64,000 nucleotides of DNA from Calditrichales bacterium MX18-03 (GTDB lineage Bacteria > Bacillota > Clostridia > Lutisporales > Lutisporaceae). Position numbers and translations under genes: made by a program. The notes beneath the pieces are model-generated. The model was not told the origin of the DNA. It saw only the letters and a program-made list of their open reading frames with translations, and did no database searches. The stretch is taken from NCBI GenBank assembly GCA_021083345.1, contig JAJGRE010000003.1:310001-374000 (forward strand), in the 5' to 3' direction. Below are positions 44,736 to 64,000 of the stretch, one piece after another (the first letter of the stretch is position 1; every line of letters begins with the position of its first letter).

Positions 44736-47700
44736 TTAACCTCTTAATAGATATTCCAGTTCGCTGACGACCTGCCTGTCAGCAAAGCCGTTTACGTCTA
44801 CTGCGCCGCATCTGCAGGTAGCGGAACAAGTTCCACAGCCCTTGCAAAGCACTGCGTTAATGACTGCCTTCTTCACGACCGCATCCCGCTTCTTGATTTC
44901 CTGTACGCTTACGGCTTTGTAGGCACAAACCTTCTCACATGCGCCGCAGCCTGCACATAAACCCTCATTCACCTGGGCAATGGTGCCTTCCGTCTCCAGC
45001 ATATCCTTTGAGATGACCGTTGCTGCCCTTGCTGCTGCTGCTTTGCCCTGCGTCATGCTCTCTCTCAGGTTTTTGGGTGCATGGGCCAATCCGCAGAGGT
45101 ACACGCCTTCCGTTGCAAAGTCAACAGGTCTGAGCTTGGCATGGGCCTCCAGGAAGAAGCCTTCCTGATTCAGCGGTACCTTGAGCATCTGGGCAATGAC
45201 CTTGTTGGCCTCGATTTCCGGCTCAATGGCGCTGCTCAGAACCAGCAGGTCAGCATCCAGATCGATTTCCTGATCCAATATGGGTTCATAAGCCTTGATC
45301 AGGAGCCTTCCGTTTTCCTCCAAAACCTGCGGCTTGCACTCCGGTGCGTAATGCACGAACTGCACGCCGGCTTTTCTGGCTTTTTGGTAATTCAACTCAT
45401 TTAAGCCATACGACCGGATATCCCTGTAAAAGATGTATACGTTCGCATCCTTGTTCCGCTCCTTCAGCTCCAAGGCGTTCTTGATGGCTTGATTGCAGCA
45501 TACTCTGCTGCAATAAGGCCTTTGCTGATCTCTTGAACCGACGCACTGGATCATGACGACATTCTTGACTGCTGCATCCGGCTTCCCTGACTTCAACAGC
45601 TCTTCAAGCTCCAGCTGTGTGATGACCGCCTTATGGGAGCCGTATTGGTATTCTTTGGGCTCATGGGCTTTTGCACCCGTTGCTACAACGACAACGCCAT
45701 GCTTGATTTCATTTTCCTCATCCCCTGTCCTGAGCACCGTTGCATACTTTCCGACATAACCGTCAATATGCTTCACTTCGGTATTCAGGTAGACATCTAT
45801 CAAAGGATTATTGGCTACCTCTTCGATATATTTCCGTATATAGTGATCATACGCTCTTCCGGTTGGCGAAGCATTCAGCTTCAGTGCATTTCCGCCCAAC
45901 CGCTCCGTCTTCTCTACCAAGTATGCCTTGAAGCCCATTCCGGCAATTTCCAATGCTGCAGAAATTCCCGCCATACCGCCGCCCAGGACCAAGGCTGCTT
46001 TTGTCACTTCAATCTTCTGCTTGGTCAGCTGACGGGCAAAGGTCACCTTTCCTACCGCCATCTTGACCAGGTCTTTGGCCTTTGCCGTGGCATCCTCATA
46101 GCGGTCCATATGGACCCAGGAGCACTGGTCCCTGATATTAGCCATGGCGAATAGGTAGGGGTTCAGGCCGGCTTTCACCAGCACCGACTGGAAAAGCGGT
46201 TCGTGGGTCCTGGGTGTACAGGAAGCCACCACAACCCGGTTCAACTGATGCTCCTTGATCTTCTCTGCGATAATCTTTTGGGCATCTACCGAGCAGGTAT
46301 AGAGGTTTTCCGTCGCATATTCCACAAATGGCAGTGTCCTGGCATATTCCACAACAGAGCTGACGCCCAGGTACCCGCCGATGTTGACACCGCAATGGCA
46401 CACAAACACACCGATCCTGATGGGCTCCTTGGAAACGTCCCGCATCTCTACCGCTTCGTTTTCACTGAAGAATGCACTATAATCCTTCAGTCTTACTTCT
46501 TCTGCATAGGCAATTTTGGATGCCTCCGATGCCGCAGCGCTGGCTTCAACCACTGTCTCGGGTATATCCTTGGGTCCCGCAGAAACACCGCAGGCTGCTA
46601 CGCCATCCCTTGAGGTTTTTGGCGGCGCCATTTCATTCACCCAGCAGAAGCCGTACCGGTCGGTCTTAATGCCTGTTTTGTCAAACAGCCTGCGGATTTC
46701 AAGCTTGGGGCTCAATCCCACAGACAGCACCACCATGTCATATTCACTTGTAGCGACCTTTCCGTCTTCCGCGCAGTGTTTTACCACCAGCATGCCGTTT
46801 TCCGGATTCTCAGCCACATCTGCGACACGGCTTTTAATAAAGCCGATATGGTATTTGTTCTTTGCAGAGTCGATATATTTGTCAAAGTCTTTGCCGTAAG
46901 CCCGCATATCCATATAGAAAATATCGATATCCTTGACCGTGGGCAAATGCTCCTTGGTAATCATAGCTTCCTTGACTGCATACATGCAGCAGACTGCAGA
47001 GCAGTATTCACTGTCGCATTTGGTATCCCTGGAGCCTACACACTGAATGAAGGCGATCCGCTTAGGCTCTTTGCCGTCGGAGGGTCTTTGGACATGTCCC
47101 TTGTATGGACCGGAGGCCGATAGGATCCGCTCGTATTCCATACTGGTAACGACATTTTTGAATCTGCCGTAGCCCAACTCCTGGGGAATATCCCTTGAGG
47201 TATCGTAGCCGTTGGCCATGATAACTGAGGAAACAGGGATCTCAACGATTTCATCCAGCTGCTCATGGCGAATGGCTTTGGACTGGCAGGTATGCTCGCA
47301 GGCTTTGCACTCGGAGCAGATGGAGCAATCCACACACCGCAGCGCTTCTGATTTTGCTTGTTCCTCTGTCAGACCCAGCTCGACCTCTTCAAAGCTGCCG
47401 GTCCGTTTATCCATTTCAATCAGGGGCATATTTGCCCTTGGCAGACGTACCAGACCTTCGAAGCTGATTTCTTCTATTGGTGTTTCGGGCAACAGGAAAG
47501 GTTCTACCGGCAGGTCGGTTCCTTCCAGATAGTTGCGGATACTTTTTGCAGCCTTATTCCCTGCGGCTATTGCGTCGATCATAGTGGCAGGTCCGCTGAC
47601 AGCATCGCCGCCTGCGAATATACCGGCTGCACCTGTCATCAGCTTTGTTCCGTCACATACAATGGTACCGTTCTTTTCAAAGGACAGGCCTTCTATTCCG

Positions 47701-49187
47701 CCAAACAGGCAATTGTCAACACGCTGTCCGATTGCCGGAATAATGGTGTCAGCTTCCATAACAAACGCTGAGCCGGGAATCTCTACAGGACTCCTGCGCC
47801 CACGCGCATCAGCAGGACCAAGGCTGTTCCTTACACATTTCAGCCCTGTAAGCTTGCCATTCTGAGACTGGATCTCAGCCGGTGCGGTCAGGTACTCAAA
47901 TCTGACGCCTTCTTCCATGGCGTGTTCAATTTCCCATGGGCTGGCGGGCATTTCCTGCTCCGATCTTCTATAGACGATGGTAACATCACAGCCAAGCCGG
48001 ACTGCAGACCTTGCTACGTCCATGGCTACGTTTCCGCCGCCTACCACCAGCACCTTCTTTCCGACAGCCGGCTTCCCGCCCAGATTCAGCTCCCGCAGGA
48101 ATTCAACACCAGGTACGACACCTGCGGCATCCTCCCCTGGAATGCCCAGTTTCATATCCTTATGAGTGCCTATGCCGAGGAAGAATGCATGATAGCCTTG
48201 TTCTCTAATATCTTCTATCGTCAAATCCCTGCCGATTTTTGTATTGCAGCGGATCTCAACGCCGAGGTCCTTCAAGATCTGGATCTCTCTGTCCAATATC
48301 GCCTTATCCAGCCGATAGCTGGGAATACCGACCCGCAGCATGCCGCCAGGCTCGGGAAGCGCTTCGAACACCGTCACAGGATATCCTGCAACCGCCAGCT
48401 GGTACGCACAATTGATCCCTGCCGGTCCCGAGCCCACAACGGCTACCTTATGCGGTTTGGGCTCCGCAGCGGTCTTGATCTCCGGTGCTTTTCCCTGTTG
48501 AATCTCATAGTCTGCTATAAAACGCTTCAATGATGCAATGGAGATTGAAGAATCCACATATTGCCTGCTGCATTTGGATTCACAAGGATGAAAGCATACT
48601 CTGCCCAGAACACCTGCAAAAGGTGTTACTTCCCTGACCAATGCCAAAGCTTCCTCATACCTGCCCTGGCCTGTCAAAGCAACATAACCATGTGCATTGA
48701 TATGAGCCGGGCATTTGTATTTGCAAGGTGATGTTCCCTTTTTATCGATGGTGACCTTGTTGGGAACCGCTTGCGCAAAGGGTTTATAAACCGCACTCCG
48801 CTTTCCGATTCCCATGTCGAACTCGCTTTGGACTTTGATTGGGCAGTTCAAGGTACAGTCGCTGCAGCCCTTGCACAGCTCTTCATCCACATAACGGGCT
48901 TTCTTTTTTACGACTGCCGTAAAATTCGGAGCGTCTCCTTTTAATTCGAGCAGCTCGCTCCAGGTCAGTGTCTTAATTAACGGATGGTTATAGCATGCCG
49001 TTACTTTCGGCGCCAGGATGCAGGCTGAGCAGTCATTGGTAGGAAAGGTCTTGTCAAGCTGTGCCATACGGCCGCCGATGCTTGGCGAGCTTTCAACAAT
49101 GAAAACCGGAATCCCCATTTCGGCCAGATCCAGTGAAGCCTGTATGCCGGCAATGCCGCCACCCAATACTAGTACAGGTTTTTTCAT
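44736..49187 (-). CDS. hdrA: HdrA-GltD-HdrA fusion (1483 residues), predicted multi-flavin bifurcation hub
   Basis: One frame joins three FAD modules. HdrA-1 starts at 1-120: VLGGGIAGIQASLDLAEMG, the HdrA-type CSACILAPKVTAC and a ferredoxin CKGCSDCTLNCP. A GltD-like block (about 150-560) is nested within it: Cys region CKYKCPAHIN and CFHPCESKC, then VAVVGSGPAGINC and VLVVGGGNVAMDVARSA. HdrA-1 resumes at about 615 (CSICSECKACEHTC, IAFIQCVGSRD, CDSEYCSAVCC, CHCGVNIGG). HdrA-2 begins near 1020 (ALVLGGGMAGISAALEIAG, IQCVGSRDQQRPYCSRVCC) and ends in two ferredoxin motifs from 1411. Ordinary HdrA is about 650 residues. GGAGG precedes the ATG. By context it accepts electrons from MvhD/Flx and serves HdrC and MetVF. 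Confidence 0.88.
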   Translation of the reverse strand: MKKPVLVLGGGIAGIQASLDLAEMGIPVFIVESSPSIGGRMAQLDKTFPTNDCSACILAPKVTACYNHPLIKTLTWSELLELKGDAPNFTAVVKKKARYVDEELCKGCSDCTLNCPIKVQSEFDMGIGKRSAVYKPFAQAVPNKVTIDKKGTSPCKYKCPAHINAHGYVALTGQGRYEEALALVREVTPFAGVLGRVCFHPCESKCSRQYVDSSISIASLKRFIADYEIQQGKAPEIKTAAEPKPHKVAVVGSGPAGINCAYQLAVAGYPVTVFEALPEPGGMLRVGIPSYRLDKAILDREIQILKDLGVEIRCNTKIGRDLTIEDIREQGYHAFFLGIGTHKDMKLGIPGEDAAGVVPGVEFLRELNLGGKPAVGKKVLVVGGGNVAMDVARSAVRLGCDVTIVYRRSEQEMPASPWEIEHAMEEGVRFEYLTAPAEIQSQNGKLTGLKCVRNSLGPADARGRRSPVEIPGSAFVMEADTIIPAIGQRVDNCLFGGIEGLSFEKNGTIVCDGTKLMTGAAGIFAGGDAVSGPATMIDAIAAGNKAAKSIRNYLEGTDLPVEPFLLPETPIEEISFEGLVRLPRANMPLIEMDKRTGSFEEVELGLTEEQAKSEALRCVDCSICSECKACEHTCQSKAIRHEQLDEIVEIPVSSVIMANGYDTSRDIPQELGYGRFKNVVTSMEYERILSASGPYKGHVQRPSDGKEPKRIAFIQCVGSRDTKCDSEYCSAVCCMYAVKEAMITKEHLPTVKDIDIFYMDMRAYGKDFDKYIDSAKNKYHIGFIKSRVADVAENPENGMLVVKHCAEDGKVATSEYDMVVLSVGLSPKLEIRRLFDKTGIKTDRYGFCWVNEMAPPKTSRDGVAACGVSAGPKDIPETVVEASAAASEASKIAYAEEVRLKDYSAFFSENEAVEMRDVSKEPIRIGVFVCHCGVNIGGYLGVSSVVEYARTLPFVEYATENLYTCSVDAQKIIAEKIKEHQLNRVVVASCTPRTHEPLFQSVLVKAGLNPYLFAMANIRDQCSWVHMDRYEDATAKAKDLVKMAVGKVTFARQLTKQKIEVTKAALVLGGGMAGISAALEIAGMGFKAYLVEKTERLGGNALKLNASPTGRAYDHYIRKYIEEVANNPLIDVYLNTEVKHIDGYVGKYATVLRTGDEENEIKHGVVVVATGAKAHEPKEYQYGSHKAVITQLELEELLKSGKPDAAVKNVVMIQCVGSRDQQRPYCSRVCCNQAIKNALELKERNKDANVYIFYRDIRSYGLNELNYQKARKAGVQFVHYAPECKPQVLEENGRLLIKAYEPILDQEIDLDADLLVLSSAIEPEIEANKVIAQMLKVPLNQEGFFLEAHAKLRPVDFATEGVYLCGLAHAPKNLRESMTQGKAAAARAATVISKDMLETEGTIAQVNEGLCAGCGACEKVCAYKAVSVQEIKKRDAVVKKAVINAVLCKGCGTCSATCRCGAVDVNGFADRQVVSELEYLLRG

Positions 49188-53904: not shown

Positions 53905-55227
53905 TTATCCCAACGGCAGCGCAGCACAGGCTTTACTGAGCCTTTCGATGGTACTGCAGTCCATCATCAGACAATGCTCCCTGAAGTTTTCCGTACCTGT
54001 GATTCCCTGCCATTCGGCCTCAGGAACGGGATTCAGCCAAATGATCCGCTTCACTCTGGCAGCAAGCAGCTTCAAACTCTGGGCTGCTTTATCGCTGTTC
54101 AAGGTTTTGGCATCGCTGACCATGATGACAACAGTAGAAGCATTCAAAACTGTGCGACTTTCATACAGCAGATGCTCCACAGCTTTGCATATATCCGTTC
54201 CCCTCCGCCAGACCTTGCTCTGTTTCACTGTTCGTTCAAATTCCATTGCATTGACGAAGCCCTGCATGTTGAGGTGTTCGACGGCTTCAGAAAATAGGTA
54301 GCTTTCTGCCGCAGCCGTATTCTGGTGCATTCCCGTGGTGAATTGAAGCACAAAGCCGGAAAAGCGGTACATGGACGCCGACACGTCGCAAAGTACGAGC
54401 AGTTTCTGCCTATGCCGCGGTTTTTGCCTGTACTTGAGCCTGAACTGGATCCCTCCTGTTGTCAGATTAGACCTCAGCGTCTTCTTGAAATCTAGACGAG
54501 CCTTCTTTTTTGATGTCTTGTACCGCCGCAGCATATTTTTCCTTAAAGTTTCGGCAAACTGTTTTATAAGCCTTATGACATTAGGCAGGTCTTCACTCCT
54601 GAGGTCGCCTATGTTTTTATACATGAGGTCATTTTCCTGCTGTCTTACTTCTGCCACTTCCCTTGCAATCAATCCGGCTTCGGATAAAACGGTTTCCATC
54701 ATACCCTGCTTTGCTGCCGCAGACCCGGCAAACGTGGTTTTGAGCTTGCTCAGCCTGCTGTGCACCATGGCTTCCGCAATGGACTTAAAAGCCGGCCCCA
54801 CATTCTTCCCGGCTGAGGTTTTCGCCAAAAAGCTCAGGATACTCTGCTTCAGATCCTCAGGCAGTGCAGTATAGATCTCTTTCAGATCGTCCCGGATTTC
54901 CAGCTGCATTTCTTGAAACCGAAGTTCAGCGGCGTTTTCCGCGATTTCATGCTTTTTCTGCGCCAGCTGCTCCCGTTTTGATGCTGCCCAATGGGATCTT
55001 TCTTCTGGGTCAATAAAGAACCGATCGAAGACTGTCTGAAACAGCTTTCTTTCTTCATCACTCTTTGCCAGGCACGCCGACAATGCCGCTCTGACCTCTG
55101 CCCTGCTCAAGACATTGATATGCTGAAGCGCCTTTACGGCATCCATGGATTCCGAAAGGCTTGCCCTGACCCCCGCAAGCCTCAGGACCTCAATAAACTC
55201 AACGATGTTTTTCAGAAAAGAATTCAT
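53905..55227 (-). CDS. CoxE-like VWA-domain protein
   Basis: A 440-residue protein. The N-terminal 270 residues are helical and charged (EVRAALSACLAKSDEERKLF; RRYKTSKKKARLDFKKTLRS). The C-terminal von Willebrand A domain has the MIDAS start LLVLCDVSASMYRF and VVIMVSDAKTLNSD with the metal-site residues. This is the CoxE family, the partner of CoxD-type MoxR ATPases that mature metal sites (for example in Mo-CO dehydrogenases). The start is uncertain: ATG at 55227, or an ATG at 55239 that directly abuts AAAGG. Either way it overlaps the ATPase gene by about 30 bases or more, so the two are coupled. Confidence 0.82.
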   Translation of the reverse strand: MNSFLKNIVEFIEVLRLAGVRASLSESMDAVKALQHINVLSRAEVRAALSACLAKSDEERKLFQTVFDRFFIDPEERSHWAASKREQLAQKKHEIAENAAELRFQEMQLEIRDDLKEIYTALPEDLKQSILSFLAKTSAGKNVGPAFKSIAEAMVHSRLSKLKTTFAGSAAAKQGMMETVLSEAGLIAREVAEVRQQENDLMYKNIGDLRSEDLPNVIRLIKQFAETLRKNMLRRYKTSKKKARLDFKKTLRSNLTTGGIQFRLKYRQKPRHRQKLLVLCDVSASMYRFSGFVLQFTTGMHQNTAAAESYLFSEAVEHLNMQGFVNAMEFERTVKQSKVWRRGTDICKAVEHLLYESRTVLNASTVVIMVSDAKTLNSDKAAQSLKLLAARVKRIIWLNPVPEAEWQGITGTENFREHCLMMDCSTIERLSKACAALPLG

Positions 55228-56086
55228 TGAATCCGCCATCCTTTCGGAATGCCTGCATATCTTCCCGGTTTTTCAGTATGAAGCCCAATGTCTTATCCGC
55301 ACCGTCCTCATCCAGCCTGTTCTTGCCGACTGCCATGAGTGCAGCCACCCAATCCAGGGTTTCTGCAATGGACGGCTTCTTATAAATACTCCCGTTTCGC
55401 CTCAGAAAAGAGACTGCAGCAGCCGCATCTCTGACGAGTCGTTCCGGTACACCTTTGATCCGGGCATTGATGATTCTCATTTCCTTTTCCAGATCAGGGT
55501 AGTCGATAAACAGGTAAGCACACCTTCTTTTCAGCGCATCGGAAAGCTGCCTGGTATTATTGCTGGTCAATATCACAATCGGTTTTACCTTCGCTTTAAC
55601 AGTGCCCAGCTCAGGTATGGAAACCTGAAAATCTGACAGCAGCTCCAGGAGGAAGGCTTCGAACTCCTCATCGGTTTTGTCGATTTCATCCACAAGCAGC
55701 ACCTCTGTCTTATCGCTGCTGATGGCTTTCAAGAGCGGCCTTTCCAGGAGGAAATCCTGGCTGAACAGGCTCTCGATTTGCATTCTGCAGGCATTCCTAT
55801 TTTCACTGCCGGCTGAGCCCAATTGTATGGAAAGCAGCTGCTTCTGATAGTTCCATTCATACAATGCTTTTGCCTCATCCAGTCCTTCATAGCACTGGAG
55901 CCGTATCAGTTCGACTCCATATGCTGCCGCCAATGCCTTTGCAACCTCCGTTTTCCCGACACCGGCCGCTCCCTCAACGAGAAGGGGTTTGCCCAGCTGC
56001 AGGGCGACATATACCGTTACCAGGAAATCTTCATCGAATATGTAGTTTTCTGCTTCCAAAGCACTTCGCAAACTGATTAAGTCCAT
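55199..56086 (-). CDS. MoxR/CoxD-type AAA+ ATPase
   Basis: A 295-residue AAA+ protein: Walker A VEGAAGVGKTEVAKAL, the CoxD-like segment LQCYEGLDEAKALYEWNYQK, Walker B VLLVDEIDKTDEEFEAFLLE, sensor 1 PIVILTSNNTRQLSDALKRR with the Arg finger, and a C-terminal lid. MoxR/VWA pairs act as chaperones that load or activate metal cofactors. Here the pair follows acsE in a Wood-Ljungdahl block, so CODH/ACS or corrinoid-protein maturation is a reasonable inference, in addition to CooC. AGAGGAGAG precedes the ATG. A hairpin separates it from acsE. Confidence 0.85.
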   Translation of the reverse strand: MDLISLRSALEAENYIFDEDFLVTVYVALQLGKPLLVEGAAGVGKTEVAKALAAAYGVELIRLQCYEGLDEAKALYEWNYQKQLLSIQLGSAGSENRNACRMQIESLFSQDFLLERPLLKAISSDKTEVLLVDEIDKTDEEFEAFLLELLSDFQVSIPELGTVKAKVKPIVILTSNNTRQLSDALKRRCAYLFIDYPDLEKEMRIINARIKGVPERLVRDAAAAVSFLRRNGSIYKKPSIAETLDWVAALMAVGKNRLDEDGADKTLGFILKNREDMQAFRKDGGFNEFFSEKHR

Positions 56087-56106: not shown

Positions 56107-56138
56107 GAATAAGAAGTGTATGTCAACACTTCTTATTC
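56107..56138. terminator. Hairpin between acsE and the MoxR gene
   Basis: GAATAAGAAGTGT (56107-56119) is the perfect reverse complement of 56126-56138, with a 6-base loop. On the minus strand only a weak T-rich stretch follows (GTATTTTAG), so it is likely a partial terminator or mRNA-processing hairpin that lowers expression of the genes after acsE. Confidence 0.6.
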
Positions 56139-56153
56139 ATATTCGTTTTTATA

Positions 56154-56957
<804 letters not shown>

Positions 56958-56981: not shown

Positions 56982-57956
56982 TTAGAGGCTGTTTGGCACC
57001 ATCAAGTCACCGATATTTTTCCTGACCAGCTTGACCGCTTCGGGATGCCGCATGACAAGAATATCCAGGCCCGACTGCAGCAATGCGGAAGCAGTCACTG
57101 CTTCCCAAAGGATGCCGCGCTCTGCTTGCTCTCCCCATCCCGGGAACTCATCGATGCCGACATTGGCTTCCTTTGCTTTCCACGCTTCAAAGCCGATAGT
57201 ACCAAGTGTCGGCAGAGCCAGCATTTTGTCCCCCTGCAATGTACCGATCCTACCTCTTTCACCGATGGAATAAGCATATTCGATACCATAGCCCAGACCG
57301 CCGATGCTGGGATCGATGATGATCTTGTCCAGCGGCAGGCCCATTTCGCTGATCAATATGTTCAATTGCTTGCAAATATTGATATCCAATGGAGATTGTG
57401 CAATGACGGTATGCTTGTGCACCATGCAGGCCGCTACGATGGTGTTGTAGTTTTCCTGTGTCGCAAAGCCCAGCAGCAGGTTTTCCCCAGCACAGGCCTC
57501 AGCCACCGCAGCAATGACCTTGTTATCCACTTCGTCGATTCCGCAGCCTACCACCGCCAGCGGAACGCCGACTGCTGCAAGCACGCTCTTGACAGTTTCA
57601 ATGCATTTTTCAGGCGAGCTGTTCCCCAGCTCGGGATCAGCACTTTGAAGTTTCAGGAATATCATATCCGCCCCAAATTCTTCCACGCTTTTCTTTGCCC
57701 AGGCAGCAGGGCTATCCATGACACCTTCAAAAGCCGCTTTCAGTTCCTCATTCCATTCCTCCGGCACTCTGTCGACAACTTCCATCGCAATGACCGGCTT
57801 ATTGGGCATTTCCCCTTCAAAGTGAAGGAAGGGCAGGCTGGCCTCTCCTCCAACGGTAATGGTGCCAGTTCTGGTTCCGCCCTGTTCTTTTGTGGCACCC
57901 AATGTGATACTGGTTACTTTGCTGGAATTTCTTTCCTTCAAAACCTGTACAGGCAT
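56982..57956 (-). CDS. acsD: Corrinoid iron-sulfur protein small subunit
   Basis: A 324-residue TIM-barrel subunit that partners AcsC in carrying the methyl-cobamide. Typical segments: [93 protein letters not shown] and [20 protein letters not shown]. Length agrees with the family (about 320). It lies between cooC and acsE. Confidence 0.95.
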
Positions 57957-58023: not shown

Positions 58024-58779
58024 CTATATATTCAGACTGTCCAGAATTTCATTGACGGCCTTGACTGCGGATGAATCACCGGGAAGCTCGAAAAGCGGCC
58101 GGCTCTTTACATCATATTCCGTTATCCCAGGGTCATTGGGAATGATCCCTGCAAGCTTCAAGCCGGTTTTTTCGATTTCTTCCTTCAAACTCTCCACATC
58201 CTCAGGCGTCGCCTTGGTTAGAATAAGGTAGACATTCTTCACCTTGGTATTGATCTGCTTCAGCAGCGCATTGACACGTCCGGCAGACCGCACCGATCTG
58301 GCAGAATTGTCGCTGATGACAAACAGGTAATCCACATCCTGGGTGGTCCTCCGGCTGATATGCTCCAAGCCGGCTTCATTATCCATCACAATGTACGGAT
58401 AGCCCTTTGTCAGCTTATCCAGATATTTCCTGAGTATATTGTTGGGGAAGCAGAAGCAGCCAGGGCCTTCAGGTCCGCCCATGACAAGAAGATCGACGTT
58501 CTTTCCTTCGGAAAGTGCTGCATTTAGCTTATACTCAATATAGACCTCCTGGGACATCCCTTCAGGAATGCCGCGTATCTCCTTGGTTTTGGCAATCAGC
58601 TCCGAGACCGTCTCATTCTCGATTTTCAGGCCCAATGCCTCATTCAGATTGGCATTTGCGTCTGCATCAACGGCCAATACCGGTGTTTTCTTCTTTTCAA
58701 TCAGATAACGAATCAGCAAAGCGCAAAAAGAAGTTTTGCCTGTTCCGCCTTTTCCTGCTACTGCTATATTTACAGTCAT
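58024..58779 (-). CDS. cooC: CooC/AcsF-type nickel-insertion ATPase
   Basis: A 251-residue MinD/NifH-type P-loop ATPase. The deviant Walker A is AVAGKGGTGKTS (about 7-18), DADANANLNEALGL follows as switch, and the CxC motif in EGPGCFCFPN is the metal-binding signature of CooC dimers. MDNEAGLEHISRRTTQDVD is also typical. It matures the Ni sites of CODH/ACS. ATG at 58779 is 8 bases from AGGAG; an ATG at 58812 lies in a structured spacer and is not favoured. It lies between acsV and acsD. Confidence 0.92.
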   Translation of the reverse strand: MTVNIAVAGKGGTGKTSFCALLIRYLIEKKKTPVLAVDADANANLNEALGLKIENETVSELIAKTKEIRGIPEGMSQEVYIEYKLNAALSEGKNVDLLVMGGPEGPGCFCFPNNILRKYLDKLTKGYPYIVMDNEAGLEHISRRTTQDVDYLFVISDNSARSVRSAGRVNALLKQINTKVKNVYLILTKATPEDVESLKEEIEKTGLKLAGIIPNDPGITEYDVKSRPLFELPGDSSAVKAVNEILDSLNI

Positions 58780-58802
58780 TTCTATTTCTCCTTCTCCAAT
58801 GT

Positions 58803-58860
58803 AAAGGGACACACCTTTCTGAACAGGAAGTATTCCTTTGGTGTTAAGGAATGTCCCTTT
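58803..58860 (-). ncRNA. Structured RNA element between acsV and cooC
   Basis: AAAGGGACA (58803-58811) and TGTCCCTTT (58852-58860) form a 9-bp outer stem. Inside, ATTCCTT (58832-58838) pairs with AAGGAAT (58846-58852), sharing the junction base. The inner loop (AACACC on the minus strand) is complementary to GGTGT in the 3' part, so a pseudoknot is possible. It may be a processing or translation-control element for cooC, or the base of a terminator. Confidence 0.5.
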
Positions 58861-58889: not shown

Positions 58890-60791
58890 CTATGCACTGT
58901 GAAGCGTCGGAAACAAGCTTAAGTCGGTGTGAGGGATAAACATGGCGGATATGAACTCATCCATAAACTGATTGCCTACGGACAGTTCCAGATAGGTCAT
59001 TCCGTCTGCCAGTTTTTCCGACTCCGCCAAAGCTTCCCTGCATAGGAGCACGATCATGGCGCCCTGAATGCAGCTGTTTCCAACGTATTCATACTTTTCT
59101 GCCGGCAAATCCGGCAGCAGCCCGATATTGACGGCATCGGCCAAATTGATATCGTTTCCGAAGCCGCCTGCTATATAGACCCGCTCTATGGCGCTAGTGT
59201 CCAGCTGCACCATCTGCAGCATGGTCCGTATGCCTGCAAAAATGGCACCCTTTGCTCGAAGAAGGTTCTTGATGTCGCCTTCCGTTATGACGATATCCTG
59301 TCCGGTGCCGCTTTCCTCCGCATAAATCAGGACATACTCGCGGCCTTCCGACGTTTTCCGGATCCGTCCGGAAGCCTTTCCTGTCAGGATCTTCCCGGCA
59401 CGGTCTATGATGCCGGCCTCCATCATCTCGGACAGTGAGTAAATCAGCCCAGAACCGCAGATACCCAACGGCTTAGTGTCACCGATCACTTTGCATTGTA
59501 CCTCCAGACTCTGGTGGTCTATCGCGATCCAGTCTATGGCGCCGTCCATGGCCCGCATGCCGCAGCTGATCCCGGAGCCTTCAAAGGCAGGTCCGGCGGA
59601 GCAGGAGCAGGTTACCATCCAGTCCTTGTTGCCAAGGACCAGTTCGCCATTGGTGCCGATATCGATAAAAAGGGTCAGGGCCTCGGAGCGCGCTATCATG
59701 GTTGCCAGCACACCGGCGGTTATATCGCCTCCCACATAGCTGGCTACCGAGGGGATGGTGATGACGGCTGCCTCCGGATTGATGTTAATATTCAGTTCCC
59801 TGGCCTTGACCACGGGAAACTTCACTGCCGACGGCACATAAGGCTCCAGCCTCAGGTAAGAGGCCGTCACACCCATGAACAAATGTGTCATGACCGTGTT
59901 GCCACCGCAAACCATTACCGGTATGTCCCCGGGCTCCAGTCCGTTCTTCCTGAGAATGCCGTCAATCAACTCATTGATGGTTTCCACCACTGCTTTCTGC
60001 AACAGTGCCAGGCCATCAGCATGCTCGTCTGTATAGATGATCCTGGATATGACGTCGGAGCCGTAAACGGCCTGCTTGTTATAAGAGCCTGCCTTATCCA
60101 GTATTTTTCCTTTTTCGGTATTGAGAAGGTTCACCACTACGGTAGTGGTTCCGATGTCCACCGCTATTCCGTAAGCCGGCTTCGTGGACCTGCCCGGTTC
60201 AACGGCAACGATTTCTGCAGCACTGCCGGTATCGGCCACTGTCACCGTCACTTCCCAGCCGCCCTGTCTAAGGGCTGACGGCAGTGTCTTCAGACAGCTC
60301 AGCGCTATGCGAACATCTGTCAGACCGTACTGTCTTGACAGCGCGTGCTTCAGACGGTCAAGATCATTCAGGCTGTCGGACAAATACGGTGCTTCCAGTT
60401 GTACCGCATATTTCCTGCAAATAGGATCCATCGGTTTTTTCCCGAAATAGTCATGCTCTTTGTTGAACTTGGTCCGCTTGCTGCCAAGTACGACTTTATG
60501 CCTGGTCAGCCTGGACAGGAAAGGCACCTCCACCGTCATATCATTCCGCACTTTAACCTGACAGGCAAGCGTATAGCCCATTTCCTTCAGTTCCTTTGGC
60601 AAATGCGAATCATCCTGCATATCGTAGGCGCCGTTCAGGATCTTTACAGCGCATTTGCCGCAGGTACCGTGACCGCCGCAGGGGCTTTCAATGTCTATTC
60701 CGGCTTTTTTCGCAGCCAGGAGAAGGTTGGTTCCCTTCATCACGGCCACTGTGACTTTGTCAGGCATAAACGTCACTTGATATTTATTCAT
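58890..60791 (-). CDS. acsV: AcsV, ATP-dependent corrinoid-protein reductive activator
   Basis: A 633-residue protein. An N-terminal plant-type 2Fe-2S ferredoxin (Cys38, 44, 47 and 77; SPCGGHGTCGKCAVKIL) is joined by a linker to an ASKHA/DUF4445 ATPase part (YGIAVDIGTTTVVVNLLN, VMVCGGNTVMTHLFMG, TLFIDIGTNGELVLGN, GSGISCGMRAMDGAID, YIAGGFGNDINLADAVNIG). This is the RACo architecture: it reduces inactive Co(II) corrinoid protein back to Co(I). The operon place between acsC and cooC is normal for acetogens. Confidence 0.94.
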   Translation of the reverse strand: MNKYQVTFMPDKVTVAVMKGTNLLLAAKKAGIDIESPCGGHGTCGKCAVKILNGAYDMQDDSHLPKELKEMGYTLACQVKVRNDMTVEVPFLSRLTRHKVVLGSKRTKFNKEHDYFGKKPMDPICRKYAVQLEAPYLSDSLNDLDRLKHALSRQYGLTDVRIALSCLKTLPSALRQGGWEVTVTVADTGSAAEIVAVEPGRSTKPAYGIAVDIGTTTVVVNLLNTEKGKILDKAGSYNKQAVYGSDVISRIIYTDEHADGLALLQKAVVETINELIDGILRKNGLEPGDIPVMVCGGNTVMTHLFMGVTASYLRLEPYVPSAVKFPVVKARELNININPEAAVITIPSVASYVGGDITAGVLATMIARSEALTLFIDIGTNGELVLGNKDWMVTCSCSAGPAFEGSGISCGMRAMDGAIDWIAIDHQSLEVQCKVIGDTKPLGICGSGLIYSLSEMMEAGIIDRAGKILTGKASGRIRKTSEGREYVLIYAEESGTGQDIVITEGDIKNLLRAKGAIFAGIRTMLQMVQLDTSAIERVYIAGGFGNDINLADAVNIGLLPDLPAEKYEYVGNSCIQGAMIVLLCREALAESEKLADGMTYLELSVGNQFMDEFISAMFIPHTDLSLFPTLHSA

Positions 60792-60806: not shown

Positions 60807-62141
60807 TTATGCAAAATGCGCCTTGGCAAATGCCGGCAGTCCAGATGCTTCAGCAGGACCTACCGTAACCTTCCAGCCGGACTTTTCTTCCAATGCGCCC
60901 TTGATGACCGCAACATAACCGGGGATAACAATATTCCTGTGGCTGACCATATCCTCAATGCCGCAGGCCTTAAGGAACTCGGCTATCTTTTCTCCGTTGA
61001 ACTTGCCTGCTGCCCAGGCTGTCAGGACAGAGGTACCGTCAGTGGGGCATGCAATGATATAGGAAGGGATCTTGCTGCCGGATATTTCTCCTTCAACGGT
61101 GTAATAAGTCAGTGAGAAGTTTGTCGTTACGTAAACCGGCGAATCCTTGGTCACTGCGCCGATCTGGTATACCTTGGGCTCAACCTGGCTGGGCTTCTGC
61201 GGGTCAGTGTAGATGTTCATCCGCAGCGCTGTCAGCGGCAGTATCTGCGACTTCTCGTCTGCCTTCATGACGACAACACTGGCATATTTTGTTATATAAA
61301 CACTGGCTTCCATGATCTCATCTCTGGGATTGTCGGAGGCCGTGAAGGCTATCACGGGATAACCCAAAGGTCTGAAACGCTTCTTGATAGCCAGTCTGCG
61401 GATCTGTGTCATTTCAGCCAAAGCTTGTGAAAGGTTCCTGGTGCCGATATCGATGACCAGTTCCTTATAGGAAGCAGCCACTTTTTCCACCAAAGCAGCA
61501 GTGGCATCCAAACCTTCTCCTTTTACAGCCAGCGGGCAATCATATTTCTTCGCCAGCTCCACTATTTTTTCATAATTGGCTTCCGTTGCGGCATAGATAA
61601 GGGGCTTCGAGCTGCCAATGACGGCAAGCCCTTTTTCCATAGCAGCCGGATCTTCGCTGATCAGAACGGTAGCGAAGCAGGTCTTGTCAGCAACAGCTTT
61701 TACAGCATTTGCAAATGTGTCGGGGTTTCCGGAATCGTTCCGGACTGCGATCATGTCAATGGATACTGTCTGCCCGACCCTTTCAAAGGCAAGGGCGTTT
61801 ACCTTCTCCACCTTGGCTTCCAGCTCAGTGCCTGACAGCATGTCGGATATCTCAATGGCTATACAGGTGGGGTGAAAAAATGCCTTATCATGCCTGAACA
61901 ATACCACTTCATCGCCCAGTTCGCGCTCATAACCTGATTTGCCTACTTTTACAAGCTTTATAGGTGGTGCTGAAGCGCCTCCTAGAGTCTCCTTGGCCTG
62001 CTCGGAAACATGAGGACACTTGTCAAGAGAGGTCTTCGATGCTGCCAAAGCCATTGCAAACGCAAGGCAGGTAGGATTCCCGCATTCCTTGCAGTTAGTT
62101 TTGGGCAGCAGTTTGTAAATGTCTAAACCTGTCAACGCCAT
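60807..62141 (-). CDS. acsC: Corrinoid iron-sulfur protein large subunit
   Basis: A 444-residue subunit that carries the cobamide and one 4Fe-4S cluster. The N-terminal cluster ligands are Cys17, 20, 25 and 42 (NCKECGNPTC and DKCP). A TIM-barrel region follows, then a C-terminal cobamide-binding domain (SKIPSYIIACPTDGTSVLTA, VSHRNIVIPGYVAVIKGALE). Length fits the family (about 446). It lies 15 bases before acsV and 37 bases after a 53-codon orphan gene. Confidence 0.95.
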   Translation of the reverse strand: MALTGLDIYKLLPKTNCKECGNPTCLAFAMALAASKTSLDKCPHVSEQAKETLGGASAPPIKLVKVGKSGYERELGDEVVLFRHDKAFFHPTCIAIEISDMLSGTELEAKVEKVNALAFERVGQTVSIDMIAVRNDSGNPDTFANAVKAVADKTCFATVLISEDPAAMEKGLAVIGSSKPLIYAATEANYEKIVELAKKYDCPLAVKGEGLDATAALVEKVAASYKELVIDIGTRNLSQALAEMTQIRRLAIKKRFRPLGYPVIAFTASDNPRDEIMEASVYITKYASVVVMKADEKSQILPLTALRMNIYTDPQKPSQVEPKVYQIGAVTKDSPVYVTTNFSLTYYTVEGEISGSKIPSYIIACPTDGTSVLTAWAAGKFNGEKIAEFLKACGIEDMVSHRNIVIPGYVAVIKGALEEKSGWKVTVGPAEASGLPAFAKAHFA

Positions 62142-62426: not shown

Positions 62427-64000
62427 TTAGAATAACGGATCCATCGTCAGCGCCGGGTGACCTTTTTCTTCCAGGAAGGACAGGATTTGCTCCGTATCCG
62501 TCCCGACGCTTTCATCAGCAACCTTGTCGATAAAATCTTCGCCCAGGCCTTCTTCGACGCTTCTCTTAATGAAATCCTCCCTGAGGAAATCCTTCAGATC
62601 CTTTGGCATCCAGATGATTCTTCCCAGACCTCCGTCAGCCTTGATGAACTTCTTGCTGACGATATAGCGCTTGCCGATGCCCATGAAACCAGGAGACTGG
62701 ACACCGCCGCCTACGGAACCGGCCAAAGTAGAGAAGGTCATGCCGCATGGAGTCATGCCGGAATGCTCTCTGGTGGTGATCATAAGGCCGTTGGCTTCGG
62801 GGACCATGGCCATAATGGCTTCAAAGCAGCCGCAGGAGGTCATGGGCAGTTCCATCAGGGTGTAAAGTGCAACTTCTTCCAGCGTCCGGTTGGAGCTGTT
62901 ATAAACAAATTCATTGACACTCCTCCAGATTCCCTTGTTCTCGTCGATCGTTCCCTCTTTCTTAATGGGCTGGTTGGGCCCTGTGGGTGTGATCTCAAAG
63001 GAAGCCTTGGCATCCAGCCAGCTGACTGCACCGCAAAGGCCTACACGCTCCGGCGCAACCACGCAGACATGATTGGGTGCGAAGGATTGACATAACGTAC
63101 AAGAGTAGAACACATCCACTGATTCGTCTGTCAGGCCCCTCAGCCTTTCATCTCTCTGATGGTAGGCAGCGCGCGCTTCCTTGATCCTTTCCTCCACCTG
63201 CTCCTTGTCGGTATAGATGATGACCTCCACACGGTCAACAATAGCAGGGAACTCCGACTTGTACTTGGCAATGAGGATCTCTCCAAAATGCCTGAATTTG
63301 AAGCCCTTTGCGTGAGCATCCTTATTGATCCTCACCCAGGCGATATCCCTCTGTGCCACATGCCACAAACCTTCACCGTAGTTGACGAAGTAGTGCACCC
63401 TTCTTTCAAGAACGCCTTCAAAATCCGGCTGCATCTTTCTTCCATAGATCTTGACGTATATGCCTAAAGGCAGCTTTGATCCTTCCTCAATATCATCTAT
63501 TTCAGGACCGACCACGGTAATCTTCCCGTCCTCGATTTCGTCCGGGCCAACCATCTTGACCAGCTCAAAGGCTGTAGTCCTTCCGCCGCCGAACTCAACA
63601 TAAGCATCGGCACCTCTGACGGTCTCACCTTCGAAAGCGGGACCGATGGTGATCGGTACATTGATATCCACTATCTTCAGCTTGATGCCCCTTAGTTCAA
63701 GGGAGTAGGGTACAATCTTTTCGTAGTCGGGCTGGTAGACGTACCAATCCGGCACTTCTTCCGCTATAGGCTGGTCGGTGATGACCGGGAAGCCCAGCAT
63801 GATGGCACCGAACTCCGCTGCTATCCTGACCTCGTCCTGCTCACCCAATGCCAATACAAATGCTCTGACTCGGTTCCTCTGGTATTCCAGCTGGGCAGCC
63901 TTGTTGCCGGGTGTTATGCCGCCGAATGCCAGACCGCCTCTCAATGCGAAATTGACGGCATGTATGGCCTGTGTGAAGTTCCCAAGCGGGAATGCGATGT
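62427..64000 (-). CDS. acsB: Acetyl-CoA synthase (CODH/ACS alpha), partial at window edge
   Basis: About 524 C-terminal codons of ACS (full length about 710-730) are open up to base 64000, where the frame continues upstream (for example HAVNFALRGGLAFGGITPG). The enzyme joins CO, the methyl group from the corrinoid protein and CoA into acetyl-CoA at the Ni-Ni-4Fe-4S A-cluster. The A-cluster ligands are visible: CTLCQSFAPNHVC, the ERVGLCGAVSWLDAKAS segment and the CGC of MTSCGCFEAIM. GGLGRIIWMPKDLK near the end is typical. acsA (CODH) would be expected upstream, outside the window. Confidence 0.96.
   Translation of the reverse strand, partial: IAFPLGNFTQAIHAVNFALRGGLAFGGITPGNKAAQLEYQRNRVRAFVLALGEQDEVRIAAEFGAIMLGFPVITDQPIAEEVPDWYVYQPDYEKIVPYSLELRGIKLKIVDINVPITIGPAFEGETVRGADAYVEFGGGRTTAFELVKMVGPDEIEDGKITVVGPEIDDIEEGSKLPLGIYVKIYGRKMQPDFEGVLERRVHYFVNYGEGLWHVAQRDIAWVRINKDAHAKGFKFRHFGEILIAKYKSEFPAIVDRVEVIIYTDKEQVEERIKEARAAYHQRDERLRGLTDESVDVFYSCTLCQSFAPNHVCVVAPERVGLCGAVSWLDAKASFEITPTGPNQPIKKEGTIDENKGIWRSVNEFVYNSSNRTLEEVALYTLMELPMTSCGCFEAIMAMVPEANGLMITTREHSGMTPCGMTFSTLAGSVGGGVQSPGFMGIGKRYIVSKKFIKADGGLGRIIWMPKDLKDFLREDFIKRSVEEGLGEDFIDKVADESVGTDTEQILSFLEEKGHPALTMDPLF

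Follow-up and report, generated by a model that had tools for sequence, protein, structure and literature searches.

The MoxR-type AAA+ ATPase and the VWA protein encoded side by side in the window (the whole 64,000-nucleotide stretch of DNA analyzed here) probably help to build CODH/acetyl-CoA synthase (CODH/ACS) or to load its metal, since the pair is nearly always found together with ACS across several hundred genomes. Our preferred reading, to which we assign a probability of roughly 60%, is that they form a MoxR/VWA remodeling complex, similar to NorQD, that is dedicated to maturation of the Ni-containing CODH/ACS system. A chaperone for the Ni-Fe CODH/ACS had been suggested in a first-pass annotation of this DNA, and the suggestion is strongly supported by ACS co-occurrence in three samples together with recurrent linkage to acs, cooS, cooC, and cooT. 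In the open literature we found no report connecting MoxR-VWA pairs to ACS, the Wood-Ljungdahl pathway, or acetogens, and a 2026 genomic-context survey of CODH mentions no MoxR or VWA protein (PMC13056359).

Coordinates of the pair, its motifs, and its upstream neighbors are listed in Table 1. The minus-strand genes acsB, acsC, acsV, cooC, acsD, acsE, moxR, and vwa follow one another in this order, with hdr-like genes, metV, and metF after them, which bears out the Wood-Ljungdahl surroundings described in the first-pass annotation (acs genes and cooC upstream; hdr-like genes, metV, and metF downstream). Its account of the pair itself, as overlapping genes with an intact MIDAS placed directly after acsE, was confirmed by ORFs, Pfam, and alignments: the moxR and vwa reading frames share 41 nt (55199–55239), and acsE (330 bits to PRK07535, cut-off 259) ends at 56154, 67 nt upstream of moxR. 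The acsE and moxR genes likely belong to the same operon, but a hairpin found between them means that transcription may be attenuated there; the hairpin could serve either attenuation or processing of the transcript. Just upstream, beyond the window in the same genome, region L106 carries acsA, a second cooC, a DUF3786 gene, cooT, and a CbiM-type cobalt/nickel uptake gene. Within it, cooT (L106:6352–6537) and the DUF3786 gene (L106:5487–6137) lie upstream of acsA and the second cooC, and DUF3786 is recurrent in many acs clusters. No Rfam elements were found in the window, and the window MoxR was the sole match to itself in its own genome (search at E up to 0.001).

Table 1. Features of the moxR-vwa locus and the adjoining acs genes, in window coordinates.
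Feature	Position	Strand	Basis
VWA partner protein, CoxE-type (PF05762), 444 aa	53905..55239	-	ORF, Pfam, alignment, structure model
MIDAS DVSAS, VWA residues 285-289, completed by T348 and D376	54373..54387	-	Alignment
Predicted beta-stabilized extension before VWA core, about residues 246-276	54412..54504	-	Model
MoxR-type AAA+ ATPase, clade A, 295 aa	55199..56086	-	ORF, Pfam, tree, alignment
Walker B VLLVDE, MoxR residues 129-134	55685..55702	-	Alignment
Segment LQCYEGLDEAKALYEWNY, MoxR residues 63-80	55847..55900	-	Alignment; common to several MoxR subfamilies
Walker A GAAGVGKT, MoxR residues 39-46	55949..55972	-	Alignment
Hairpin between acsE and moxR	56107..56138	-	Scan core 13 bp; fold 19 bp, a few bases further on each side; z -4.45
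acsE, methyltetrahydrofolate:corrinoid/Fe-S protein methyltransferase	56154..56951	-	NCBIfam PRK07535
acsD, corrinoid protein small subunit	56982..57956	-	Named by gene order and matches in other acs clusters
cooC/AcsF-type ATPase	58024..58812	-	CbiA fold (family scan)
acsV (RACo), corrinoid reactivator	58890..60791	-	Family scans
acsC, corrinoid protein large subunit	60807..62141	-	Named by gene order and matches in other acs clusters
acsB, acetyl-CoA synthase, runs beyond window end	62427..63944	-	Whole in L106:428-2557

Both proteins scored above the Pfam cut-offs, MoxR for AAA_5 (1.5e-12) and the VWA protein for VWA_CoxE (PF05762; 1.7e-30, 107 bits). The window MoxR has an AAA+ domain with Walker A, Walker B, and sensor 1 (TSN), all of them invariant or nearly so among 24 homologues, with G39, G42, G44, K45, and T46 strictly invariant. 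The MIDAS residues of the VWA protein (D285-x-S287-x-S289, T348, and D376) are invariant across 37 homologues, and an adjacent VWA partner is a lasting feature, as the moxR-vwa pairing is kept at 78 of 83 loci (ORFs at loci beyond the window were called with codon scoring). A conflict or defense system was considered and rejected on the outcome of PADLOC, in which the VWA protein had no match and MoxR had weak ATPase-domain matches only.

The first-pass annotation had described the pair as CoxD/CoxE-like. Our comparison set comprised authentic CoxD and CoxE from plasmid pHCG3, cox-linked relatives from Deinococcus and Bradyrhizobium, a haloarchaeal relative beside Mo-hydroxylase genes, and a methanol-dehydrogenase-linked relative. 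Among 141 MoxR proteins placed in one tree, that of the window belongs to a clade of 115 members, hereafter clade A. Support for this clade is modest (88, SH-aLRT), and it has two subgroups, one from Clostridia and Synergistaceae (99) and the other from Desulfoscipio, Thermincola, and relatives (84). Clade A includes neither the CoxD proteins of Afipia and Bradyrhizobium, which pair with each other at 100, nor any of the cox-linked, haloarchaeal, or methanol-dehydrogenase-linked relatives. Shared with CoxD/CoxE, which mature Mo-Cu CO dehydrogenase, are the VWA_CoxE match, the moxR-vwa gene order, and 48% identity between the window MoxR and CoxD of Afipia carboxidovorans, whereas the separate MoxR clade, the low identity of the VWA protein to CoxE (25% over 203 residues), and a C-terminal cysteine pattern that is common in clade A and missing from CoxE set the two pairs apart. 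Orthology to CoxD/CoxE was rejected on the MoxR tree and the gene context: coxMSL, XdhC/CoxF, and CoxG were not found beside the pair in the window, where its neighbors are acs, hdr, and met genes. A cox gene context is present at three loci (L126, L247, and L248). The “CoxD-like” segment LQCYEGLDEAKALYEWNY is indeed present, but it is not specific to CoxD because several MoxR subfamilies have it with small variations, the mycobacterial methanol-dehydrogenase-linked one among them. The pair would work like CoxDE proper but is distinct from it. MadB and MadC (NCBIfam NF047784 and NF047783) are the best NCBIfam matches for the two window proteins, but this identity was rejected because both scores (277 and 100 bits) fall under the equivalog cut-offs (475 and 600); the plasmid relative beside an NDMA-dependent methanol dehydrogenase also lies outside clade A.

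Genomes carrying the best-scoring named relatives of the window MoxR contain ACS in 41 of 49 cases. Of the eight without it, several come from small or fragmented assemblies; in one (G397), the moxR contig also bears acsD and acsE. Across the window's class, ACS is present in 21 of 391 genomes (about 5%; 24 matches, of which three weak ones were excluded); a MoxR of at least 60% identity occurs in three genomes of the class, the window genome among them, and all three have ACS. Clade A carriers in an Oscillospiraceae-like family have ACS in 15 of 16 genomes vs. 25 of 114 others (p = 3e-8, nine weak ACS matches excluded), and those in the phylum of a Desulfoscipio genome (129 genomes, clade A membership assigned by match strength and tree-corrected for two genomes) in 34 of 38 vs. 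8 of 91 (p = 4e-19); in these and the following statistics, the genome counts are phylogenetically non-independent and carry no species-tree correction. CODH is found in three of the four phylum-sample carriers that lack ACS, which leaves CODH as a possible client.

Shared ancestry could in principle produce such numbers. A MoxR/VWA pair of the ordinary kind, acting on a housekeeping client or a Mo-hydroxylase, would co-occur with ACS if both simply belonged to the same anaerobe lineages; the genome counts are clustered by lineage, and bacillithiol and Crp-type genes are frequent neighbors of the pair in one phylum. Moreover, a paralogous MoxR subfamily (B) is itself associated with ACS in the unstratified phylum sample (p = 9e-9), so lineage might explain everything, and for this reason the sample was stratified. 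Among genomes without clade A, ACS is present in 1 of 10 with B and 7 of 80 without B (p = 0.63); among those with B, it is present in 24 of 24 with A and 1 of 10 without A. This stratification argues against a pure lineage effect. The association also holds in the separate Oscillospiraceae-like family and extends to a Synergistaceae acs operon, 20 genomes of the window's own family among the matches listed lack both ACS and a clade A MoxR, and the scanned window proteins included no Mo-hydroxylase. We therefore consider shared lineage a highly improbable explanation; with the paralogue control, clade A co-occurs with ACS beyond the lineage background, although the genome counts are clustered by lineage. 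Neither does CODH alone account for the pattern, since clade A still tracks ACS among the CODH-positive genomes of the phylum sample (61 of 129), with ACS in 34 of 37 carriers vs. 8 of 24 non-carriers (p = 2e-6).

The pair is missing from many genomes with ACS (25 of 40 in the Oscillospiraceae-like sample), so it is accessory and not generally required, possibly helping when nickel is scarce or with particular ACS variants. The phylum sample has the pair in 31 of 34 genomes whose ACS is at least 62% identical to that of the window, vs. 3 of 8 with a more distant ACS. ACS subtype was nevertheless rejected as the cause of the patchy presence, since in the Oscillospiraceae-like genomes the ACS sequences with and without the pair are interleaved in the ACS tree, a result from which the phylum sample differs. 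Two different acetyl-CoA synthase genes were observed in many of the Oscillospiraceae-like genomes. Patchiness would also suit conditional repair, with the pair acting as an activase that removes an inhibited or damaged state of CODH/ACS, as CbbQO does on rubisco. The rubisco activase CbbQO is itself a MoxR/VWA pair (PMC4660213; discussed in PMC9976466); however, linkage to the nickel delivery genes cooC and cooT (PMC6006190) points to assembly, and the corrinoid protein has its own reactivator, AcsV, so that we regard repair as improbable. The acs cluster of the window genome was likely acquired by transfer, because its ACS belongs to a deep clade shared with those of Desulfoscipio, Thermincola, and relatives, and the listed members of its family have none.

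Genomic linkage adds groups of loci in which the pair adjoins genes of the CODH/ACS system. A CODH, ACS, or coo gene lies near the pair at 14 of 114 clade A loci within 3 kb and at 16 within 10 kb; at the other 98, the 10-kb range contains neither acs nor coo genes. The linked loci form about five groups that are separated in the tree. One consists of the window and two loci, L027 and L029, with cooT (PF10133, 2.7e-23) between acsE and moxR; L027 reads acsE-cooT-moxR-vwa, and the contig of L029 ends inside moxR. The second, a Synergistaceae locus (L084), has acsB-acsD-acsC-acsE-moxR-vwa in one run with the pair last, and the third, from a gut Clostridiales clade, has a divergent cooS-cooC-acsB beside the pair. 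In the fourth (L083, L102, and L226), homologues (50–53%) of the window's cooC/AcsF-type ATPase follow vwa or lie by moxR; L226 and L083 share the order moxR-vwa-cooC, with overlapping ends in L226, where cooC runs over the end of vwa. At the fifth (L219), a full-length CODH gene (cooS) ends 67 nt before moxR, and vwa starts at the end of moxR. The neighborhood survey that the first-pass annotation had proposed as its own test thus found recurrence, with linkage to acs, cooS, cooC, and cooT in separate lineages. Linkage alone would not carry the case, because most loci are unlinked and, in one phylum, the pair has bacillithiol genes and a Crp-type regulator beside it just as often.

The same neighborhoods bear on which enzyme is the client. 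Should it be a different enzyme of this metabolism, the tie to ACS would be indirect, via the Wood-Ljungdahl pathway; the candidates are formate dehydrogenase, the Hdr/MetVF complex, an electron-bifurcating hydrogenase, and the corrinoid protein. Within the window, acsE flanks the pair on one side and hdr genes on the other; five other loci are within 10 kb of hdr-mvhD-type genes, five adjoin genes read as nuoE/nuoF/hydA-type, and at three (L036, L064, and L092) molybdenum-cofactor genes read as mobA/mobB are close by, accompanied in L036 by formate dehydrogenase genes and in L092 by a gene that reads as fdhD. Such formate dehydrogenase-type and hydrogenase-type linkages occur at few loci, with neighbor names read by eye, whereas the genes fused directly into an operon with the pair are cooS, cooC, cooT, or acs genes; an indirect tie of this kind appears unlikely, if less so than repair. 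The large Hdr flavoprotein, a client put forward in the first-pass annotation, fares poorly, as hdr-type genes are within 10 kb at only 5 of 114 homologous loci besides the window and within 3 kb at none. The corrinoid protein may also be a client, since its genes travel with acsE at the linked loci. By-eye reading also placed a Crp-type regulator and bacillithiol synthesis genes near the pair at L036, L064, and L092, and the same MoxR-VWA pair after a lactate/malate dehydrogenase-like gene at L003/L010, G048.

In a structure model of the VWA monomer (pLDDT 86.7), the N-terminal half is long and helical and a VWA domain follows. The first Foldseek match of this model is NorD in the NorQD complex (9qh8_G), which aligns over 214 residues (Z 15.4, rmsd 3.8) and covers VWA residues 218–444, while integrin-type VWA domains align over about 155 residues only and the VWA of MDN1/Rea1 over 195–197. 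MDN1/Rea1 is a ribosome-biogenesis AAA+ protein with a VWA domain that acts on its AAA+ ring. The NorD-like fold therefore includes a part beyond the integrin-type core, a likeness at the level of fold with no claim of orthology. Like NorQ/NorD, which serve iron insertion into nitric oxide reductase, the pair combines a MoxR ATPase and a VWA partner with an intact MIDAS; unlike them, it has other genomic partners, and its VWA protein is 9% identical to NorD where the two VWA parts align and has an N-terminal half with no NorD match. NorQD is indispensable for inserting metal into its target, and cryo-EM of the complex places the VWA finger in the ring pore and led to a proposed twisting mechanism of metal insertion (PMC13036017; PMC9976466). 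In our model, the predicted extension at residues 246–276 is a candidate for a finger entering the MoxR pore.

By analogy with NorQD, we infer that the pair would remodel apo-CODH/ACS and insert nickel, with ACS or CODH as the presumed direct client. MoxR would form an ATP-driven ring, plugged by the finger of the VWA protein, whose MIDAS and N-terminal helical domain may grip the apo-enzyme. ATP hydrolysis would then twist the client open for metal entry, and Ni, most likely from CooC and CooT, could be taken into the A-cluster (ACS) or the C-cluster (CODH). CooC and CooT are nickel delivery proteins, CooT being a nickel-binding CODH accessory protein (PMC6006190). The pair resembles CooC, CooT, and CooJ, which deliver nickel to CODH, in its linked cooC/cooT genes and presumably in the process served, but the proteins are unrelated to it. 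More tentatively, and with less confidence than in a dedicated maturation complex, we propose an ATP-driven MoxR/VWA nickel-insertion machine for ACS/CODH, so far unrecognized, that acts downstream of CooC/CooT, is spread across the Bacillota with ACS, and has traveled between phyla along with acs operons. To our knowledge, the way in which nickel reaches the A-cluster in ACS and the C-cluster in CODH has been worked out only in part. Having a named candidate pair, whose motor and adaptor are both evident, brings the question within reach of experiment. Poor maturation limits the heterologous use of CO2-fixing CODH/ACS. If correct, the proposal would extend MoxR/VWA metal insertion from molybdenum-copper and iron enzymes to nickel enzymes that belong to one of the most ancient routes of carbon fixation.

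Two smaller observations concern the proteins of the window. The C-terminal cysteine pattern of the VWA protein, CxMxxC at residues 423–428, occurs in 84 of 123 VWA proteins; it was considered as a metal site and set aside, since the first cysteine is not conserved throughout clade A. At 44736–49187, the window encodes a 1483-aa HdrA-type flavoprotein with an inserted module that, read by eye, resembles the small subunit of NADPH-dependent glutamate synthase.
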